Source: Candidatus Sumerlaeia bacterium
Lineage (GTDB): Bacteria > Sumerlaeota > Sumerlaeia > SLMS01 > JAHLLQ01
Length of the DNA: 64,000 bases
Assembly: GCA_019634695.1 (NCBI GenBank)
Contig: JAHCAW010000015.1
Location: 1-64,000, forward strand
Direction of reading: 5' to 3'
Shown here: positions 19,585-35,171 of the stretch, piece after piece
How positions within the stretch are numbered: position 1 is the stretch's first letter
How the letters are laid out: the number at the start of each line of letters is the position of its first letter
Translations under genes and position numbers: made by a program
Notes under the pieces: generated by a model
What the model saw: only the letters and a program-made list of their open reading frames with translations
The model's database searches: none
What the model was told of the DNA's origin: nothing

Positions 19585-20424
19585 TCACGCGCGGGTCTCG
19601 TTCTCCCGATCCCGCGAATCCTCGACTCCGAGGAAGCGCACGAGGATCACCGAGATGTTGTCGAGCCCGCCGTTGGCGTTCGCTGCCTGGATCAACTCCC
19701 GGACGGCCGTCTCGAGGTCCGGGTGCTTCAGCAGGATCGCGCGCATGGCGGCATCGTCCACCATGCCTGAAAGCCCGTCCGAGCACAGCAGGTAGGTGTC
19801 GCCCGTCCGCAGCGCCCGCGACTGCACGTCCACTTCGACGTCCAGTTTGTTGCCCAGCGCCCGCGTGATCACGTTCTTCCAGCGGTGGTTCTTGGCCTCT
19901 TCGGCCGTGATGATCTTCTTCTGCAACTGCTCCGAGACCCACGAGTGGTCCAGCGTCAGTTGCTCGATTTCGCCCTCGCGCAGCAGATAACATCGCGAGT
20001 CGCCGACGTGCGCGATCGCCAGCCGGTTCGTGCCCGGGTCGATCAGCAGCGCCACCAGCGTCGTCCCCATGCCGCTGTATTCGGCATGCTCGAGCGACAG
20101 GTTGCACACGTCGCGATTGGCCACCTTGATGCCGGAGACGAGGGTGTTCTCGAGTTCGCTCAAGCCGGGCTCGGCCGGGAAGGGCCAGGTCACGTCGCTG
20201 GCCGTCGAGGTGCGCACGAACTCGACGATCGACTCGATCGCCTGCCGGCTCGCCACCTCGCCCGCGTTGTGTCCGCCCATGCCGTCGGCCACGATGTAGA
20301 GCCCGATGTCGGGCACCACCGACAGGCTGTCCTCGTTGTGTCCCCGCTTCAGGCCCCGGTCGCTCAGCCCCGCGGCCTGGATCCGAATGCCTGCGTCTTC
20401 GCCGGTTTGCAGCTCTCTGAACAA
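19585..20424 (-). CDS. prpC: PP2C-family serine/threonine phosphatase
   Basis: 279 residues from a TTG start (no ATG precedes the domain; gagg lies about 10 bases upstream). All metal-binding motifs are present: GLSDRGLKRGHNEDS, VADGMGGHNAGEVAS, GDSRCYLLREGEIEQLTLDHS, LLCSDGLSGMVDD and GGLDNISVILV. These bind two Mn/Mg ions and hydrolyse phospho-Ser/Thr. Bacterial PrpC enzymes usually oppose Hanks-type kinases. The only kinase-like protein in the window (29982-33251) has lost its catalytic residues, so the partner kinase is probably elsewhere. The protein is soluble. Confidence 0.94.
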   Translation of the reverse strand: MFRELQTGEDAGIRIQAAGLSDRGLKRGHNEDSLSVVPDIGLYIVADGMGGHNAGEVASRQAIESIVEFVRTSTASDVTWPFPAEPGLSELENTLVSGIKVANRDVCNLSLEHAEYSGMGTTLVALLIDPGTNRLAIAHVGDSRCYLLREGEIEQLTLDHSWVSEQLQKKIITAEEAKNHRWKNVITRALGNKLDVEVDVQSRALRTGDTYLLCSDGLSGMVDDAAMRAILLKHPDLETAVRELIQAANANGGLDNISVILVRFLGVEDSRDRENETRA

Positions 20425-26723: not shown

Positions 26724-26814
26724 CGAACCACGAGCCACGAACATCGAGCCTCGCGCCACGAGCCTCGCGCCACGAGCCCCGAGCGACGAACTACGCACCA
26801 CGAACCACGAGCTA
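26724..26814. repeat. Thirteen-copy heptanucleotide tandem array
   Basis: Exactly 13 units of 7 bases in register, consensus cgagcca (cgRRcca): cgaacca, cgagcca, cgaacat, cgagcct, cgcgcca and so on to cgagcta. No unit is shorter or longer. The last unit contains the stop codon (TAG, minus strand) of the amidase gene. Substitutions are mostly at units' third, fourth and seventh positions. It resembles the heptameric STRR sequences described in filamentous cyanobacteria in period only. Confidence 0.85.
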
Positions 26815-29800
26815 CTCTGCCACCCCCAGATGCTTCGCTGCGGCCTTGAGGAGTGCGGTGCGGCGGTCGAAGGGATGGACGGTTTCGAGCGGGAAGCCCA
26901 GCACCACGACGTTGGTGCTTGCGATGCCGGCCGCGCGGGCGCCGTCGCCGTATTCGAGCACCACGCGGCCGCCTGCCGCCGGCGTCAGCGCCTCGGCTGA
27001 AGGCACCGCCATCGTCGGCTCCAGCAGGTTGATCGCCGGATCGAGCGTCGCTCCGAAGCGCAGGGTCTTCACGTCGGCGAACGGCTCGGTGGCCCGCACG
27101 GCGTTCGTCTGCGTGGCGCGCGAGACATAGCCCGCGATGCCCAGCGTCTCGGCGGCGAAGCGTCGGCTGTCGGCGTTCGCCTCGGGGCCATCGATCAGAT
27201 CCTCGGCCAAGTAGGCGCCGCTCAGCAGCAACCGGCCGCCGCCGCCGATGTGCTCGCGCAGGCGTGCGCGCGCGGCCGCCGGCAGCACCTCGAACGCCGT
27301 CGCCATCCGGTCCGGGTGGCCCATCGCCGGCATGCCTGTCGGCGGGGGAGTGGAGCGCTGCAAGCCCGCGCACCACGCGATCATCGGCCAGGAGCCCGCG
27401 GGCGTGGCGTCGGCGAAGGCCTCGGCCAGCGCGGAGTCGAACGCGAGGCCGGCCTCCTGCGCCGCACGGCCCCACGCCGCGATATGGTCGAAGCCGTTGC
27501 CGCGCTCCAGATGATCTTCCATGTCGCTGTTGCTCGCGCCCCAGCCCGGCGCCTCGAGGTCGTCCACCCAGTCCGAGGTCCGGTCGTAGTTGTAGACGTT
27601 GCCGACGACCCCGTAGTTCCAGTGCCATCCGACGCCCGGATCGAGATCGCGGTCAAAGCCCGCGGTCGCCTCGTCCTCGTAGTAGGCGGGTCCGCCGACG
27701 CGATCGAATCCATCGACGAGCAGGATCGGCCGCTTGCCGGCCTCCCAGCGCACGCCGACGAGACGGCTCGGGAAGGACTCGCCGCCGGCGTTGGCGGCCG
27801 TCACGCGGAAGTAGTGCGCCTGGCCCTCGGGCACCTCGACGACGAACGGCGACGCCTGCGCGGGCCGGCCATTGTCGAAGCTTCGTCCGTCGCGGCTTGT
27901 GTAGACAATATAGCTTTCCGCGACCGCGGAGGGCTCGAGCGGATCCGGGCGCTCGCGCCAGACGAGCTCGACGCGTCCGTTGCCCAAGTGCCGCGCCGCA
28001 ACGTGCGTCGGCGCCAGCGGCTGGATCACCGGCTCGTAGCCGTTCGAATACGCCACGAACCGAAGCAGCGCCTTGTACACCGCGCGCGCCATGTCGAATT
28101 TGAACCGCGGGTCGAGGCCGTACTTCATGTCATTCATGTTTTGGTGCGACAGCAGCTCGATCAGCGCCGACGGGACATTCGGGCGGCTGGTCTCCGCCAG
28201 CGCCCGGTTGTGCACGTGCCGACGTGCCCACGTGGACGTGTAGAGTCCGCGCGCGGCCCGGACGATCTCGTCGTCGAGCAGCACGGCGAGGTCGCGGTTC
28301 AGCCAGCGCGAGCGCCCGTCCGGGAACGCCGCGCCTCCTTCGCCATCGGTCACCGAATAGATCATGTGCGTGCCGACGAGTCCCTTGTGGTCCACGCCCG
28401 CGTCGCTGTGCCAGGAGAGATAGAGGTCCACCGGCACGTTGAGCCCGTCGCTGTCGCGCCATCCGTTGTTCGGGCCGCTTGGGCGGCCCAGCAGATAGTT
28501 CGGCCACTCGCTGCGCGAGAAGTAGTCGCGGGCATAGTCCACGCCGAAGTGCTGCGGCGGACCGCCGCGCAGGAAGACCGAGTCGGCCGGCGCGCCCGCG
28601 TATTGCAGGAAGTAGCGCGCCGCCTCCGCGTAACGCGGCTTGCCGCTGATCTGTCCATCGACCGCCACGTTGCCCATGCCGCCGCCGAAGCGCACCGCGT
28701 CCGCCGTCACATACGTCGCGCCGCCGCGTCCGCTGGGCGTCGCCCCGTTCGTCGAAATCACCACCGCGCCCTTCTCCGGATCGGCGCCCTGCACGAACTC
28801 GAAGAAGCCCAGCACCACCCAGGTGCCGCCCGAGGATTGCTGGTTCACGCGCACGGTCGTCTGTCCGCCCGCGTGCCGGATCGTCACCGGCACCGACGGG
28901 CTATTCTCCGGCGCGTGCGCCCACGAGATGCTGACGGCATAGCGCCCGTCGCGCGGGATATAGGGCACGTAGAGCGCCTCGGACACGCGCGCCTCCACGG
29001 CGGCGCGCAGCGTCGTGCCTTGCTGGAAGGGCTCGTCGCCCTCGTCCAGCGACGCCGGCCGCCCGCCGCGCCATCCGCTTGCCGCGCCCGTTTCCCACGC
29101 GCCGCTCGCCAGGAACTGCGACTTGTCGCGCAGCCCGTCATTGTCCACGATCACCTCTTCGGTGTTCCAGTCGCGCTCGCGCGCCGAATAGACCACCGCC
29201 CCCGCGTTCTCCAGCATCGGCATCAGGAACGGAAGGATGTAGGAGGGCGAGAACAGGTCCTCGATCGTCGTGTGCAGGCGGCAGCGTTGGAACTGCCAGC
29301 GATTCTCCATGTGCCAGGTCCAGCCGTGACTCGGCGCGATCACCAGGTGCCGGCCGGCCAACCCCGCGGCCGGCGTCGGGCCGACGTACTCCGGGCGCTG
29401 CACCACCGGGGCAGCCAACCGCGGCCCGTCCACCGTGCGTTCCTGCTCGCGTGCGCGAATGTGCGCTGGGCTCGTGACATGATCCTCGAACGAGACGTCG
29501 TTGACGCGGCCGCGCCCGGCTGGATAGCGCACGACGATTTCGAGCGCCTTCGGATCGACGCCCAGAGCCCCGGCGACGAACGCCTGCAAGCGCGCCGCCT
29601 CCTCGGGGTACCAACGCCGGTAGCCCAGATGCACGCTGAACGCCGCGCGCACCTTGTCGGTGCCGCGCTCGACCGCCTCGACCTTCGTCGCCGGCGGAAT
29701 CAATCCGTCATATCCCCCCGCGCCGCGCCGCCGTTCCGCATCCAGCGCCTTCGTCAACGCCTCGGACCCTGCCGCGTCCGGTTCTCCGACCCATGATGCC

Positions 29801-29907
29801 ACGGCGGGCTCCTCTTCCGGTGCCGGCGTCGGCTCGGCCACCTCGCGAACTTGGGAGGCGCATCCCCACAGGAGAGCCACCAGGAACAGAACGGACAGGC
29901 GCTTCAT
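26812..29907 (-). CDS. Large lipoprotein N-acetylmuramoyl-L-alanine amidase with Golvesin-like and Fn3 domains
   Basis: 1031 residues; gagga lies 9 bases before the ATG. The lipobox LLWGC puts the mature N-terminus on Cys16, so it is a membrane-anchored envelope protein. An amidase_3-type zinc hydrolase core is split: HLVIAPSHG (first His, about 195), then LYLSWHSDAG (second His, about 445) and ALIELLSHQN (catalytic Glu, about 525). Between them is a beta domain of the Golvesin C-terminal/xanthan-lyase type (VTIRHAGGQTTVRVNQ, then YVTADAVRFGGG). A fibronectin III-like domain follows (about 565-650), then a C-terminal domain of about 350 residues that I do not recognise (RPILLVDGFDRVGG onward). 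Such amidases cut the peptide from muramic acid in peptidoglycan. The pseudokinase gene lies 74 bases upstream on the same strand. Confidence 0.82.
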   Translation of the reverse strand: MKRLSVLFLVALLWGCASQVREVAEPTPAPEEEPAVASWVGEPDAAGSEALTKALDAERRRGAGGYDGLIPPATKVEAVERGTDKVRAAFSVHLGYRRWYPEEAARLQAFVAGALGVDPKALEIVVRYPAGRGRVNDVSFEDHVTSPAHIRAREQERTVDGPRLAAPVVQRPEYVGPTPAAGLAGRHLVIAPSHGWTWHMENRWQFQRCRLHTTIEDLFSPSYILPFLMPMLENAGAVVYSARERDWNTEEVIVDNDGLRDKSQFLASGAWETGAASGWRGGRPASLDEGDEPFQQGTTLRAAVEARVSEALYVPYIPRDGRYAVSISWAHAPENSPSVPVTIRHAGGQTTVRVNQQSSGGTWVVLGFFEFVQGADPEKGAVVISTNGATPSGRGGATYVTADAVRFGGGMGNVAVDGQISGKPRYAEAARYFLQYAGAPADSVFLRGGPPQHFGVDYARDYFSRSEWPNYLLGRPSGPNNGWRDSDGLNVPVDLYLSWHSDAGVDHKGLVGTHMIYSVTDGEGGAAFPDGRSRWLNRDLAVLLDDEIVRAARGLYTSTWARRHVHNRALAETSRPNVPSALIELLSHQNMNDMKYGLDPRFKFDMARAVYKALLRFVAYSNGYEPVIQPLAPTHVAARHLGNGRVELVWRERPDPLEPSAVAESYIVYTSRDGRSFDNGRPAQASPFVVEVPEGQAHYFRVTAANAGGESFPSRLVGVRWEAGKRPILLVDGFDRVGGPAYYEDEATAGFDRDLDPGVGWHWNYGVVGNVYNYDRTSDWVDDLEAPGWGASNSDMEDHLERGNGFDHIAAWGRAAQEAGLAFDSALAEAFADATPAGSWPMIAWCAGLQRSTPPPTGMPAMGHPDRMATAFEVLPAAARARLREHIGGGGRLLLSGAYLAEDLIDGPEANADSRRFAAETLGIAGYVSRATQTNAVRATEPFADVKTLRFGATLDPAINLLEPTMAVPSAEALTPAAGGRVVLEYGDGARAAGIASTNVVVLGFPLETVHPFDRRTALLKAAAKHLGVAE

Positions 29908-29981: not shown

Positions 29982-32900
29982 TCAGAACGGAAGCAGGCCC
30001 CGTGGCGACAGCAGCCGCCGCAGGTTCCCCATGCCCGCCCCGGCAATCATCAGCGCAAACCCCGTGAACACCGCCATCGTCGCGTCGAACTGCGGCTGCG
30101 CCACCAGCGCGACGATCGGCCGCGTCGCCACCAGCAGCAACGCCCCCAGAATCGAACAGACCGGCGCCAGATAGCGTCGCCCCATCGTGTTCTTCACCAG
30201 CATTCCCCCGATCACCAGGGCCCCCAATGTGCCGCCCCAGCCCCAACGATAGTAGTCCAACAGGAAGGCCGCGACCTGCTTCGGAATCGCCACCCCCACC
30301 TTCGGCGCGACCGTCGGTCCAAGGAATCCCAGCAAGATGCCGGTGCCGAGCAGCGACGACGCCCCGTTGAGCACCGCGCGCACGGGGCTGCCGCCCACGC
30401 CATGATAGTGCTGCGAGCCGCGCATCAGCCCCATGCCGGTGCCGATCGGCGCGTTCAGTCCGCCGGCGAACTCCTCCGGCGCGGGTGCCGACGCATCGCC
30501 GCGGCGACGCTGCTTCGCCTGGCGCTCCTCCTCGCGCACCACGCGCTGCGCCTCGCGCCGCGCCTTGCGCAATGCCTCGCCCTCGCTCGCCCCCTGGCCT
30601 TGCAGCCGCAACGCCTCGGCGCGCGCCAACTGCCGCTCCTGCATTTCCTGCCGGCGTGCGGCCTCCACGTTGCGCGCCCAACGATACAGCGGGTCGCGCC
30701 ACGTCCCGAAGCGCCCACGACTCACCCCCTTGCGCAACGTCACGAAGCGCGTGCGCGCCGAGAGCATCGCCTCATAGCCGAACACCGATTCGAAGAACTC
30801 CTCCCAGTGATGCCCGCAGGCCTCGAAGAAGCCTTCGCGTACCACGTCCTCCGAGTACCCGGTCTCCCGCAGCGCGCGCACCTGATCCATCGCCCCGTGC
30901 ACCACCTCGCTGCGCTGCATCCGCAACGGCAGCACCAGTCCCAACTGATAGGCCAGCGCCATCGCCAGTGCGAGCACGGCCACCACGAGCCAGTAGACCA
31001 GCACTCCCATGGCCCAGGCCACGACTCCGCCGGCGAGCGCGGCCAACGCGGCCGTCGCCCAGCCCGCGATTCCCATGCGCAGCAGCGCATGGCGCAGTTG
31101 CAGGAACAGCGCGCTGCGCGTCAGCAGACCGTCGATCACGACGCTCCAGAAGATCGGCAGCAGGAGCAGCGCCAGTCCGGTCAGCGTGCCCTGGAAATCC
31201 CGCAGCCATGCCGCCGCCGCAAGCGTGCCGAGACCCGTTAGCGCAAAGAAGAGCAGCAGCACGAGCAAGCGCACCTTGCGCAACGGCGCGGCATGGAAGC
31301 GTTCGTGCAGCGCCTTGAAGACCGCGAACCGATTGGCGGTCGCGGCCGCCAGACGAGAAGGCGAATCGGCACTCGGCTGCGCCTGCTGCGCGGCCGCGCG
31401 CGCCGCGGGCGACAGCCCCTCGGGCGATCGCTCGATCCCGATAACATCCTCCAGCGCCGCCACGACCTGCCACGTTTCCTCGCAGCGCTTCTCGCGCGTG
31501 CGCGCCAGCAAGCGGTCAAGCAGGCGCTCGATCTCGGGCGAGACATCGCGCGCCAGTCTGGAGGGAGGCTCGTACGCGCCCTTGGCCTGTGCGGCGACCA
31601 CCTCCGCCGCAGAGTTTCCCACATACGGCGGACGCCCCGTGAGCAGATAATATAGCACACACCCCAGCGCGTACTGGTCCGCACGCCGATCCACCGATGC
31701 TGCGTCGCGCGCCTGCTCGGGGGCGATGAACTCCGGGTCGCCCAACGCCACCCCGGCCCCCGTCACGTTCGCCATTCCCACGCCAAGAATGGGTCGGTTG
31801 TCGTCGGGCGTTGCTGCCGACGGCGCCTCGAACTTCGTCAGCGACAGCGCCGCGACTTTCACCACGCCGCCGCTCGTCAGGATCAGATTGTCCGGGTTGA
31901 TGTTGCGATGGATCACGCCGCGGTCGTGCGCCACCTTCAAGGCACGCGCCACCTGAACCGCGTAGCCCACCGCCGCACGCGTCTTCAGCGGCCCGGTGGT
32001 CTCCACGACGCTGCGCAGGCTGCCGCCCGTGATGCGCTCGTAGCAGATGTAGTAGAGCCCCTCCCACTCGCCGGCCGCCGAGGCCTCGATCCAGTTCGGA
32101 TGCACGACCTGCGAGGCGCTGATGCCCTCGCGGATGAACCGGGTCACGCGCACGATGTCCTTGGCCTGACGCGGGCGCAGCAGCTTCAGCGCCACGTCGC
32201 GCTCGTGGTCCACGTCGCGCGCGTGATAGGTCACCGTATCCGCGTCGGACTCGGCAAGATGCTCGACCTGATAGTGCAGGAAGCGTTTTCCGGCGAGGCG
32301 TTCCTCGGCCGGTCGACTGGCCGCCGCCGCCGGCTCGGGGGCCTCTTGCGCGCGACGGGCTTCGCCGCCGACATTGTCGAGCAGATTCGCTGCGCCGACT
32401 TGCAGCGCCAGCTTCAGTCCGCCGGCCCTCGCGGCTTCCCCCTTGTCACCCTTCTCCGTCGGCGACCGCAACGGCGCCAGCCCCACGCGCCCGGCCTCGC
32501 ACAACTCGATCGGCTCGGCGAAGCCCTCCAGCCGGAAGCGCCCGTGGCGCATCCATTGCGTTCCGGGCGGCACCGCCTCGTTGCCCGCCGCACGCGTGCG
32601 GGCGCGGTCCCACGCCTCGCGCGTCATGAGCACCTGATTGCCCAACGCCAGGCGTCGCAGCATCGCCGCGCCCTCGACGTCGGAGCCCTGCGGCACGGGG
32701 GCGCCGCTGCCCGTCGCCCGCGCGGCTTCCACGACATGGATGCCCGCGCGCGGCTCGAGATCGATTCCCAACTCGCGCGAGACATTCCGCAGCGTCTCGA
32801 CCAGGTTCAGTCCGTACGCCACCGCGTCGACGGGACGGTCGAACGCGATGCGGAACTTGCGCCCGCCCGAGAGTTCGTAGCCCGCGAACTGAGCGATCTC

Positions 32901-33251
32901 GAAGCGCGCGATCCGCTCGAAGATCGTCAGCAGCTCGCCTGCCTTCTCGCCGCCGTGCTCCTTGCCGAACGAGGAGGCGTTGCGCAGGTCGGCCTCGAGC
33001 AGCGCGACGCGCGTGGGCAACGCGGCCAGCACGCCCGTGCGCCCCGGACTCGCCGCGGCGCGCGGACGCGCGCTCCCGGTCTCCAGCGCGAACGGCACCG
33101 CCAGCAGCTCGCTCGGCTCCTTCGCCGCGCCTCCCCGATCACCTGCCGTCACCGGCGTCAACTGGCCGCAACTCGGGCAGAGAATCAGTCGCTGCCCTTC
33201 TCGAACCGCCACTTCCCATCCATGCGCGCACTTCGTGCACTCGAGTCTCAA
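29982..33251 (-). CDS. Zinc ribbon / cyclase-like / pseudokinase membrane protein
   Basis: 1089 residues from a TTG start, chosen because gaggtgg lies 6 bases upstream and MRLECTKC begins a zinc ribbon. Order: CTKC...CPSC ribbon (5-28); class III nucleotide-cyclase-like domain (about 78-255) that keeps EADL and RAGIHVVE but has GGRKFR where the second metal Asp is expected; Hanks-type kinase fold (about 326-590); hydrophobic region with five or six spans from about 675; basic coiled coil; three or four more spans at the C-terminus. The kinase keeps VALK (Lys356), N455 and APE (510-512), but HRD is HRN (Asn450), the HRDxK Lys is Asn, DFG is AAL (about 467) and the glycine loop has no glycine. 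It is therefore a pseudokinase, likely a sensor or scaffold. Confidence 0.82.
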   Translation of the reverse strand: MRLECTKCAHGWEVAVREGQRLILCPSCGQLTPVTAGDRGGAAKEPSELLAVPFALETGSARPRAAASPGRTGVLAALPTRVALLEADLRNASSFGKEHGGEKAGELLTIFERIARFEIAQFAGYELSGGRKFRIAFDRPVDAVAYGLNLVETLRNVSRELGIDLEPRAGIHVVEAARATGSGAPVPQGSDVEGAAMLRRLALGNQVLMTREAWDRARTRAAGNEAVPPGTQWMRHGRFRLEGFAEPIELCEAGRVGLAPLRSPTEKGDKGEAARAGGLKLALQVGAANLLDNVGGEARRAQEAPEPAAAASRPAEERLAGKRFLHYQVEHLAESDADTVTYHARDVDHERDVALKLLRPRQAKDIVRVTRFIREGISASQVVHPNWIEASAAGEWEGLYYICYERITGGSLRSVVETTGPLKTRAAVGYAVQVARALKVAHDRGVIHRNINPDNLILTSGGVVKVAALSLTKFEAPSAATPDDNRPILGVGMANVTGAGVALGDPEFIAPEQARDAASVDRRADQYALGCVLYYLLTGRPPYVGNSAAEVVAAQAKGAYEPPSRLARDVSPEIERLLDRLLARTREKRCEETWQVVAALEDVIGIERSPEGLSPAARAAAQQAQPSADSPSRLAAATANRFAVFKALHERFHAAPLRKVRLLVLLLFFALTGLGTLAAAAWLRDFQGTLTGLALLLLPIFWSVVIDGLLTRSALFLQLRHALLRMGIAGWATAALAALAGGVVAWAMGVLVYWLVVAVLALAMALAYQLGLVLPLRMQRSEVVHGAMDQVRALRETGYSEDVVREGFFEACGHHWEEFFESVFGYEAMLSARTRFVTLRKGVSRGRFGTWRDPLYRWARNVEAARRQEMQERQLARAEALRLQGQGASEGEALRKARREAQRVVREEERQAKQRRRGDASAPAPEEFAGGLNAPIGTGMGLMRGSQHYHGVGGSPVRAVLNGASSLLGTGILLGFLGPTVAPKVGVAIPKQVAAFLLDYYRWGWGGTLGALVIGGMLVKNTMGRRYLAPVCSILGALLLVATRPIVALVAQPQFDATMAVFTGFALMIAGAGMGNLRRLLSPRGLLPF

Positions 33252-33449: not shown

Positions 33450-35171
33450 TCACTCGCCCGACAACGCCTTGCACGCCATGCCCACCACAAACAACGCCAA
33501 CGGAGTCCCCATGATCCCGCCCAGAATCGCCATCAGCAGGCCCACCGGTGCCATCGACTGGTTGTACGCCGCCGCCACCACCGGCGCCGACGCCGTGCCT
33601 CCGATGTTGGCCATCGAACTCGTTGCCCCAAGGAACAACGGCGCCCGCAGCAATCGCACCCCCGCATACAGGAAGCACACGTGGATGACGATCCACACGA
33701 AGCCGATCATGAAGAAGACCGGCACGTCGAAGATTGCCATCAGGTTCGCCCGTGCGCCGTAGCTCGTCAGCAGCAGGTACAGCCCCATCGTGCCGATGCT
33801 CGACGCCCCGCAGTAGTCCAGCGACCGCACCTTGGTCAGCGACAGCAGCAGGCCCGCCGCCGTAATCAGCAGAATGCCCCACGCATAGGCATTCACCACC
33901 TGCGACATCGCCTTGAGCTTCAGCGTCGCGTCGAAGAAGGTGAAGACCGGTTTGCCAGCCCACAGGCACACTTGGCTGACGACCAGTGCCACCGCCACCA
34001 TGAAGGCCATGTCGGCCGTCCGCGGGCAGCGCGCGTTGGCTTCATGTTCCTGCGACAGGTGCGCGCTCAGCACGTCGATCGCCCGCGTGTCCGCCTTGTG
34101 TCGCGCGTCCACGCGCTGCTGGTAGGGCACCAAGGCAATCAACAACCCCAGCCACGTGTACGCCAGCACCGTGTCCACGATCACCATCGGGCCCAGAATG
34201 TTCGGGGGCGTTCCGACGGCCTCCAGCACCGCAAACATGTTCGTCGAACCGCCGATCCACGAACCCGCCAGCGCTGCCACGCCCTTCCACGTCCCCGTGG
34301 GCAGCGAGTCCGGCATCAGCGCGTTGAAGATGCCGAACGACGTGATCGCCCCGACGACGATACCCGTCGTCGCGATCAACATCATCGCCATCGCCTTAGG
34401 TCCCAGCTTCGCCAAGCCTTTCACGTCCGACGGAATCAGCAGCAGAACCAGAATCGCCGGCAGCAGCACCTGCGACATGAACGGCGAGTACAGCGTCGAC
34501 TGGTCCGGCGTCACGCCGACCGTCGTCAGCAGCATCGGCACGAAGTACATCCAGATCAGGGGCGGACAGTAGCGGAACAGCGGCTCGAACGGCTTGAGTC
34601 CCGCCACCAGGAAGATCAACGCCACCACGCCGGCGAGAAACGCTGCCAGCGTCACCGGATTCCACAACAACGACACCGCCGCCGACGCCGGGTCCGTGCT
34701 CAACGACACCGCCCGCCCGTCCGCCAGCAACGCCTCGGGATCAATCAGGTGAACCGGCTTGCGCAGAACGATCGCCTTGGGCGCCTGCACGCTCACCGTC
34801 GCCAGCGCCCCGCTCGCCAACTCCCCCTCCTCAACGCGCCACACCAGTTGCCACTGGCGCGCCTCGCCGGCCACCGGCGTCATCGTGAACTCCACATCGG
34901 CGCCCGCCGCGGCACCCTTCACCACCGCCGGCGTTTCGAAGACCTCACCCCCGAAGGCGAGCACCGTGCGCACCTCCTGCGTGCCCGCCGGCAGGTTCTT
35001 CGCGACGATCGGCTGGGAGAGCACGGAACCAATGCCTCCTCGCAGGTCGCTGATCAGCAGCTCGGGCAACTTCTCGCCCGCCGCCGGGGCCGCGAAGCCC
35101 GCGGTCACCGACATCAGAAGAATCGACACCACCAACCAGGTTGCACGCAGGGAGGAACGGAATCGGAACAA
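33450..35171 (-). CDS. DUF819 family membrane protein with secreted N-terminal domain
   Basis: 573 residues, TTG start with a weak gagacagg upstream. Residues 1-28 form a signal peptide (ATWLVVSILLMSVTAGFAAPA). Residues 30-165 are a beta-rich, soluble domain. From about 170 there are about 11 spans with the DUF819 (YjcL) signatures GSWIGGSTNMFAVLEAVG and LGATSSMANIGGTASAPVVAAAY, which look like paired re-entrant loops of a transporter related to the 2-hydroxycarboxylate/GltS folds. DUF819 substrates are not established. The periplasmic N-terminal domain is not part of ordinary DUF819 proteins (about 380-400 residues). Confidence 0.82.
   Translation of the reverse strand: MFRFRSSLRATWLVVSILLMSVTAGFAAPAAGEKLPELLISDLRGGIGSVLSQPIVAKNLPAGTQEVRTVLAFGGEVFETPAVVKGAAAGADVEFTMTPVAGEARQWQLVWRVEEGELASGALATVSVQAPKAIVLRKPVHLIDPEALLADGRAVSLSTDPASAAVSLLWNPVTLAAFLAGVVALIFLVAGLKPFEPLFRYCPPLIWMYFVPMLLTTVGVTPDQSTLYSPFMSQVLLPAILVLLLIPSDVKGLAKLGPKAMAMMLIATTGIVVGAITSFGIFNALMPDSLPTGTWKGVAALAGSWIGGSTNMFAVLEAVGTPPNILGPMVIVDTVLAYTWLGLLIALVPYQQRVDARHKADTRAIDVLSAHLSQEHEANARCPRTADMAFMVAVALVVSQVCLWAGKPVFTFFDATLKLKAMSQVVNAYAWGILLITAAGLLLSLTKVRSLDYCGASSIGTMGLYLLLTSYGARANLMAIFDVPVFFMIGFVWIVIHVCFLYAGVRLLRAPLFLGATSSMANIGGTASAPVVAAAYNQSMAPVGLLMAILGGIMGTPLALFVVGMACKALSGE

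Follow-up and report, generated by a model that had tools for sequence, protein, structure and literature searches.

A protein that joins two signalling domains, both apparently inactive, raises the question of whether its gene is broken or maintained and, if maintained, what the protein might do. The window analysed here is a 64,000-nt stretch of DNA (contig JAHCAW010000015.1) from a Candidatus Sumerlaeia bacterium of the phylum Sumerlaeota. A first-pass annotation had placed on it an open reading frame encoding a zinc ribbon, a cyclase, a kinase fold and membrane spans, and our re-analysis recovered the same frame, coordinates and domains, given here with the sites that matter below:

29982..33251, minus strand: gene of the putative double pseudoenzyme (TTG start at 33251, stop at 29982; 1089 aa)
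33144..33251, minus strand: N-terminal zinc ribbon, residues 1-36, CTKC...CPSC, from the Cys pattern; Pfam matches are weak only
32484..33017, minus strand: class III cyclase-like domain, residues 79-256; Asp88 kept, metal-2 Asp replaced by Arg131, AAR Arg by Met197
31434..32297, minus strand: PknB-like pseudokinase domain, residues 319-606, from Pfam, PDB match, alignment and structure model
32229..32252, minus strand: site of the lost glycine loop, residues 334-341, from the alignment; no Gly at the GxGGMGxV places
31887..31910, minus strand: catalytic loop HRNINPDN, residues 448-455; paralogues read HRDIKPDN
31842..31853, minus strand: DFG position, AALS, residues 467-470; paralogues read AD[ML]G
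31761..31763, minus strand: activation-loop Thr497, aligned with PknB Thr171
29985..31355, minus strand: C-terminal helical membrane module, residues 633-1089, common to intact kinases of Sumerlaeia and Planctomycetota
30774..30806, minus strand: WEEFFESVFGY signature in the module, residues 816-826, from the alignment

The start of the gene aligns with that of its nearest relative (genome G011, introduced below), and its GC content by codon position (0.73/0.51/0.87) resembles that of neighbouring genes, which indicates that it is coding. A linker separates the zinc ribbon from the cyclase-like domain, and a second one, modelled with low confidence, separates the latter from the kinase fold; for the full-length protein, AlphaFold2 reaches a mean pLDDT of 76.

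The kinase domain matches Pfam Pkinase (PF00069; E=1.3e-28, 100.5 bits against a cut-off of 31.7). PknB is both its best sequence relative in the PDB (E=7e-35) and the top Foldseek match of the modelled domain (E=2.4e-17, TM 0.89 over the target). The structure prediction that the first-pass annotation had proposed as a check yields a confidently modelled kinase fold, with a core pLDDT of about 90. By sequence and by model, the protein thus carries a Hanks-type protein kinase fold. Alignment with 28 intact relatives confirmed that this fold lacks the glycine loop (334-341), the catalytic Asp of HRD (now N450) and the DFG motif (AAL, 467-469), as first described, and showed that the catalytic-loop Lys is replaced by Asn. 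The ATP-binding Lys356, Asn455 and APE510-512 are retained, again as described, together with Glu375. Under the residue definition, in which the VAIK Lys, HRD Asp or DFG Asp is lost and the loss is common to relatives, the alignment classes the protein as a pseudokinase, although some proteins so classed by sequence retain activity. The position of Thr497 is Thr in all 31 sequences, the three pseudokinases described below included.

The cyclase-like domain is more diverged, such that it has no Pfam match when searched alone. With a profile built from 12 of its relatives, class III cyclases such as Ma1120 are found at about E=1e-23, and the NCBIfam model TIGR04510 matches residues 135-267 of the window protein (E=1.8e-14); in AlphaFold2, the larger part of the domain's first half has a pLDDT of about 80. 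These matches identify it, at the level of sequence, as homologous to the class III nucleotidyl cyclase catalytic domain. The missing second metal Asp noted by the first-pass annotation is confirmed by the alignment, which has Arg131 in its place, and we add to its list the transition-state Arg of the AAR motif, which is Met197. Active class III cyclases have two metal Asp and this Arg, of which the window protein has Asp88 only. We made no use of the class III Asn as a criterion, since Ma1120 itself lacks it at the aligned place.

Two full-length relatives share this architecture: one from another Candidatus Sumerlaeia bacterium (G011 L031/L068; JAFIGB010000078.1), with 37% identity, and one with 34% (G008 L032/L069; WGMQ01000039.1). 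Only these two were recovered again when 84,980 species genomes were scanned by two peptide patterns. The double pseudoenzyme is present in 3/39 genomes of the class, and its three members sit in different genera, at unrelated loci, with open frames of 1031-1089 codons. The genomes compared were assembled from metagenomes, and completeness is 86% for that of the window. The four Cys of the zinc ribbon are present in the G011 relative and in most intact paralogues, and absent from the G008 relative.

Whether homologues share the losses has a mixed answer. The glycine loop, the DFG Asp and Gly, the catalytic-loop Lys and the cyclase metal-2 Asp are gone from all three members, whereas the HRD Asp is lost in the window protein alone. 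Given in the order window, G011, G008, the HRD Asp position reads N/D/D, the VAIK Lys (Lys356) K/K/R, Asn455 N/N/S, the DFG Asp A/G/S, the cyclase metal-2 position R/K/A and the AAR Arg M/R/A; at the glycine-loop places the glycines are replaced by letters that differ in each member. Most simply, the glycine-loop and DFG losses would be ancestral and the remaining ones would have followed later in single lineages. The first-pass annotation had reasoned that homologues with intact HRD and DFG would point to local decay or a sequencing error. Half of that pattern exists, as the HRD Asp is present in both relatives and the DFG Asp and glycine loop are missing from both, while fully intact HRD and DFG occur only in paralogues without a cyclase domain, which form a neighbouring group. 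Because the main losses recur in the G011 and G008 genomes, we reject local decay and sequencing error as explanations. The apparent inactivity of both joined domains thus stands as a reading of the residues and extends to the relatives, and the window protein is probably an old, maintained double pseudoenzyme and not a broken gene.

The distribution of the losses along the protein is consistent with this. From the 28 intact sequences we defined 82 near-invariant columns in the kinase and 23 in the C-terminal part. All three pseudokinases have lost 20/82 of the kinase columns, and the losses concentrate at ATP-binding and catalytic columns (9/14, vs 11/68 of the other kinase columns; Fisher p=5e-4, a value that describes sites and not independent events because the three members share ancestry; the 14 columns were selected on general knowledge of kinases when the losses were already partly known). 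Among the C-terminal columns only 2/23 are lost in all three members and 19/23 are kept by all of them. From this pattern in three members, which are too divergent for dN/dS, we infer purifying selection on the double pseudoenzyme.

Hydropathy and AlphaFold2 concur in placing several membrane helices within residues 650-1080, and the membrane module modelled alone is all helices, with a pLDDT of 86. It has no shared Pfam family, its best PDB sequence match has E=0.047, and there is no fold match at E<=0.001. The module, with its invariant W, E, F and R (WEEFFE, WRD), also occurs in intact kinases, from Gemmataceae and Phycisphaerae as well as Sumerlaeia (window 29985-31355; L041, L083, L080), and is a candidate for description as a new family.

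A tree of kinase plus module groups the three members as a single clade (100/100), next to 18 intact Sumerlaeia kinases; the Planctomycetota kinases fall outside, and HRD is present in every Planctomycetota relative examined. Where precisely the pseudokinase clade sits among the intact kinases differs between this tree and a kinase-only tree, and its branches are long (about 1.0-1.4 vs a median of 0.36). Each of the three genomes also holds an intact paralogue with the same membrane module. The cyclase-like domain resembles that of the cyclase-kinase-WD40/TPR proteins of the same class, though the kinase lineages differ: the kinase-only tree splits the membrane-module lineage from these proteins at 100/100. 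The simplest reading of these trees is that a duplicate of a membrane kinase gene gained the cyclase-like domain.

The gene neighbourhood had suggested a different connection, in which an amidase encoded downstream would be the output of the protein. The genes on either side are:

26812..29907, minus strand: lipoprotein-like gene with Amidase_3-like (below cut-off) and Golvesin_C domains; not a conserved partner
33450..35171, minus strand: upstream gene of a DUF819 membrane protein, which adjoins the amidase gene directly in the same-genus genome G001

The amidase gene does lie 74 bases downstream on the same strand, but its role as output did not hold up. G001 has the same gene order of response regulator, DUF819 and amidase, the last 65% identical to that of the window; there DUF819 and amidase lie 114 bases apart and the pseudokinase gene is missing. 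Nor does the gene always precede an amidase, which the first-pass annotation had suggested checking: no amidase was found within about 8 kb of the G011 or G008 pseudokinase genes, and over the same distance the three loci have no neighbour in common. The amidase family occurs in 29/39 genomes of the class, most of them without the pseudokinase. We therefore reject the amidase as output on synteny; these comparisons suggest that its adjacency to the pseudokinase is recent or lineage-specific. The amidase/Golvesin family is large and paralogous in Sumerlaeia, with up to 25 matches per genome.

Other neighbours differ from locus to locus. MlaE and MacB/FtsX genes lie upstream of the G011 pseudokinase. 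In G008, a motif-intact Ser/Thr kinase gene (L032:4043-7753, plus strand; HRDLKP, MDWG) lies 87 bases upstream on the same strand, and its product is a possible partner of the G008 pseudokinase. In the window, a PP2C-type protein phosphatase gene (19588-20424, minus strand) lies about 9.5 kb from the pseudokinase gene. A defence-system kinase was also considered and rejected: the PADLOC matches (PD-T4-6, mad6) cover the generic kinase domain only and are stronger for the intact paralogue.

We propose that the protein is a maintained non-catalytic scaffold for signalling at the membrane and a binding partner of active Hanks kinases, a reading in which our confidence is evenly balanced. The order of events would begin with duplication of a gene of the type zinc ribbon - Hanks kinase - membrane module, whose copy would have received a cyclase-like domain of the cyclase-kinase-WD40/TPR kind from the same bacteria. 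This lineage would then have lost the ATP-binding and phosphotransfer residues of the kinase and the metal-binding residues of the cyclase, while the folds and the membrane module, judging from conservation and models, were kept. Held in the membrane by a module like that of the intact paralogue, the protein would associate with that paralogue or with another Hanks kinase, and the association would either tune kinase activity or allow phosphorylation in trans, with Thr497 as the candidate acceptor, that recruits other proteins. FHA proteins are readers of phospho-Thr. They are present in all three genomes, and the window genome has 10 FHA matches beside 26 kinase matches above cut-off. The availability of kinases and readers is weakly permissive for this proposal, since both are common in these genomes. 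As for the mode of contact, Leu33 and Asp76 of PknB, which make its back-to-back dimer contacts, correspond to H/L/L and A/E/E in window, G011 and G008 (H349 and A392 in the window protein). A PknB-style dimer is therefore not favoured for the window protein, and it is more likely that the membrane module or the cyclase-like domain makes the contact. A more specific version, in which pseudokinase and pseudocyclase together partner the active membrane kinase paralogue whose module they share, and phosphorylated Thr497 recruits FHA proteins, would define a new class of scaffold; we regard it as tentative and rather doubtful.

The first-pass annotation had suggested a sensor of nucleotides, in which the kinase or cyclase pocket would bind a nucleotide such as ATP or cAMP, leave it unconverted and signal through the membrane module. 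The window protein keeps Lys356, Glu375, Asn455 and cyclase Asp88, as a sensor might, but pocket residues differ among the three members, although some of them should be constant if the ligand were the same, and we consider this reading unlikely. Class III cyclases act as dimers, and mammalian adenylyl cyclases, with their unequal C1 and C2 halves, offer a model in which the cyclase-like domain would pair with an intact cyclase domain elsewhere under regulation by the pseudokinase. A pseudokinase fused to a cyclase has a precedent in receptor guanylyl cyclases (PMC10400071), and in the G011 member the Arg expected from a C2-like half is still present. The window protein, however, has neither the metal-2 Asp nor this Arg, so neither half fits, and the related cyclase-like domains of these genomes sit mostly on kinases and are themselves only putatively active, which makes a cyclase subunit improbable.

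Residual catalysis, through migrated residues in an atypical kinase or another activity of the kinase fold, would accord with the HRD Asp kept in G011 and G008 and with the activity of some supposed pseudokinases. The glycine loop, DFG Asp and catalytic-loop Lys are nonetheless gone from all three members, and from the window protein the HRD Asp as well, so that we give it only a small probability. A decaying, functionless paralogue caught before its loss would explain the presence in so few genomes and the long branches. The frames of more than a thousand codons in all three lineages, the base composition typical of coding DNA and the retained C-terminal columns speak against it, and we consider it very unlikely. 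An envelope regulator in one operon with the adjacent amidase has that gene's distance and strand in its favour, as well as the precedent of MviN, which ties a membrane pseudokinase to peptidoglycan control (PMC12599244). The synteny that argued against the amidase as output applies here too, namely DUF819 and amidase adjoining without the pseudokinase in G001, the lack of a nearby amidase in G011 and G008, and the wide spread of the family, and this reading seems to us the least credible.

A non-catalytic scaffold of this kind can be set beside several known systems. Its sister family (zinc ribbon - Hanks kinase - module, from Sumerlaeia and Planctomycetota; for example L041/L082, L083) has the same kinase lineage and WEEFFE module, with a zinc ribbon in most Sumerlaeia members, but keeps GxGGMG, HRDIKPDN and AD[ML]G intact and has no cyclase-like domain. 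The cyclase-kinase-WD40/TPR proteins (L052, L058, L061, L063), with which TIGR04510 (putative peptide modification system cyclase) is grouped, carry a related cyclase-like domain (29-36% identity) directly N-terminal to the kinase. They differ in their kinase lineage, which is mostly intact, in an acidic metal-2 residue that is mostly kept, and in their C-terminus. Among studied systems the closest precedent is MviN/MurJ of Mycobacterium tuberculosis, whose dead kinase domain binds no ATP, serves as a substrate of PknB and recruits FhaA (PMC12599244). MviN, of the ActPs3 family, is a membrane protein with a Hanks pseudokinase that exemplifies trans phosphorylation and the recruitment of FHA proteins (PMC12599244), but it has an activation-loop deletion, retained back-to-back dimer contacts, an essential peptidoglycan role and no cyclase-like domain. 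The ActPs3 features compared here are absent from the window protein, whose activation loop is full length and whose Leu and Asp positions are H349 and A392.

The TOMM kinase/cyclase fusion TIGR03903 also has kinase and cyclase in one bacterial protein, but the window protein reaches 97.6 bits against a cut-off of 705.75, over the kinase part only, and is not such a fusion; with 189.6 vs 450 bits for NF033483, again over the kinase part only, it is not a PknB PASTA kinase either. The animal receptor guanylyl cyclases GC-A and GC-C combine a pseudokinase and a class III cyclase in one membrane protein, in reverse domain order and with an active cyclase and a ligand-binding ectodomain (PMC10400071). 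Bacterial pseudokinases are barely studied: a 2025 review of their families (PMC12599244) has no mention of cyclases or Planctomycetes, and literature searches for 'pseudocyclase' with adenylyl cyclase and for planctomycete kinases with an adenylate cyclase domain found no papers. A lineage that fuses two dead folds, kinase and cyclase, and whose cells also contain motif-intact sister kinases with the same membrane module, offers a clean case for asking what role a kinase fold plays without ATP, and the finding points to an undescribed membrane module common to Sumerlaeia and Planctomycetota kinases.

Two other cyclase-kinase proteins show comparable losses. One (L173:2069-4693, minus strand) has HRN for HRD and no metal-2 Asp; in the other (L174:1-4157, minus strand), which has WD40-like repeats, the kinase is strongly degraded (VKELSP; DFG region EALAARG). 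Judging from these two sequences, double decay in the Sumerlaeia class may have more than one origin.
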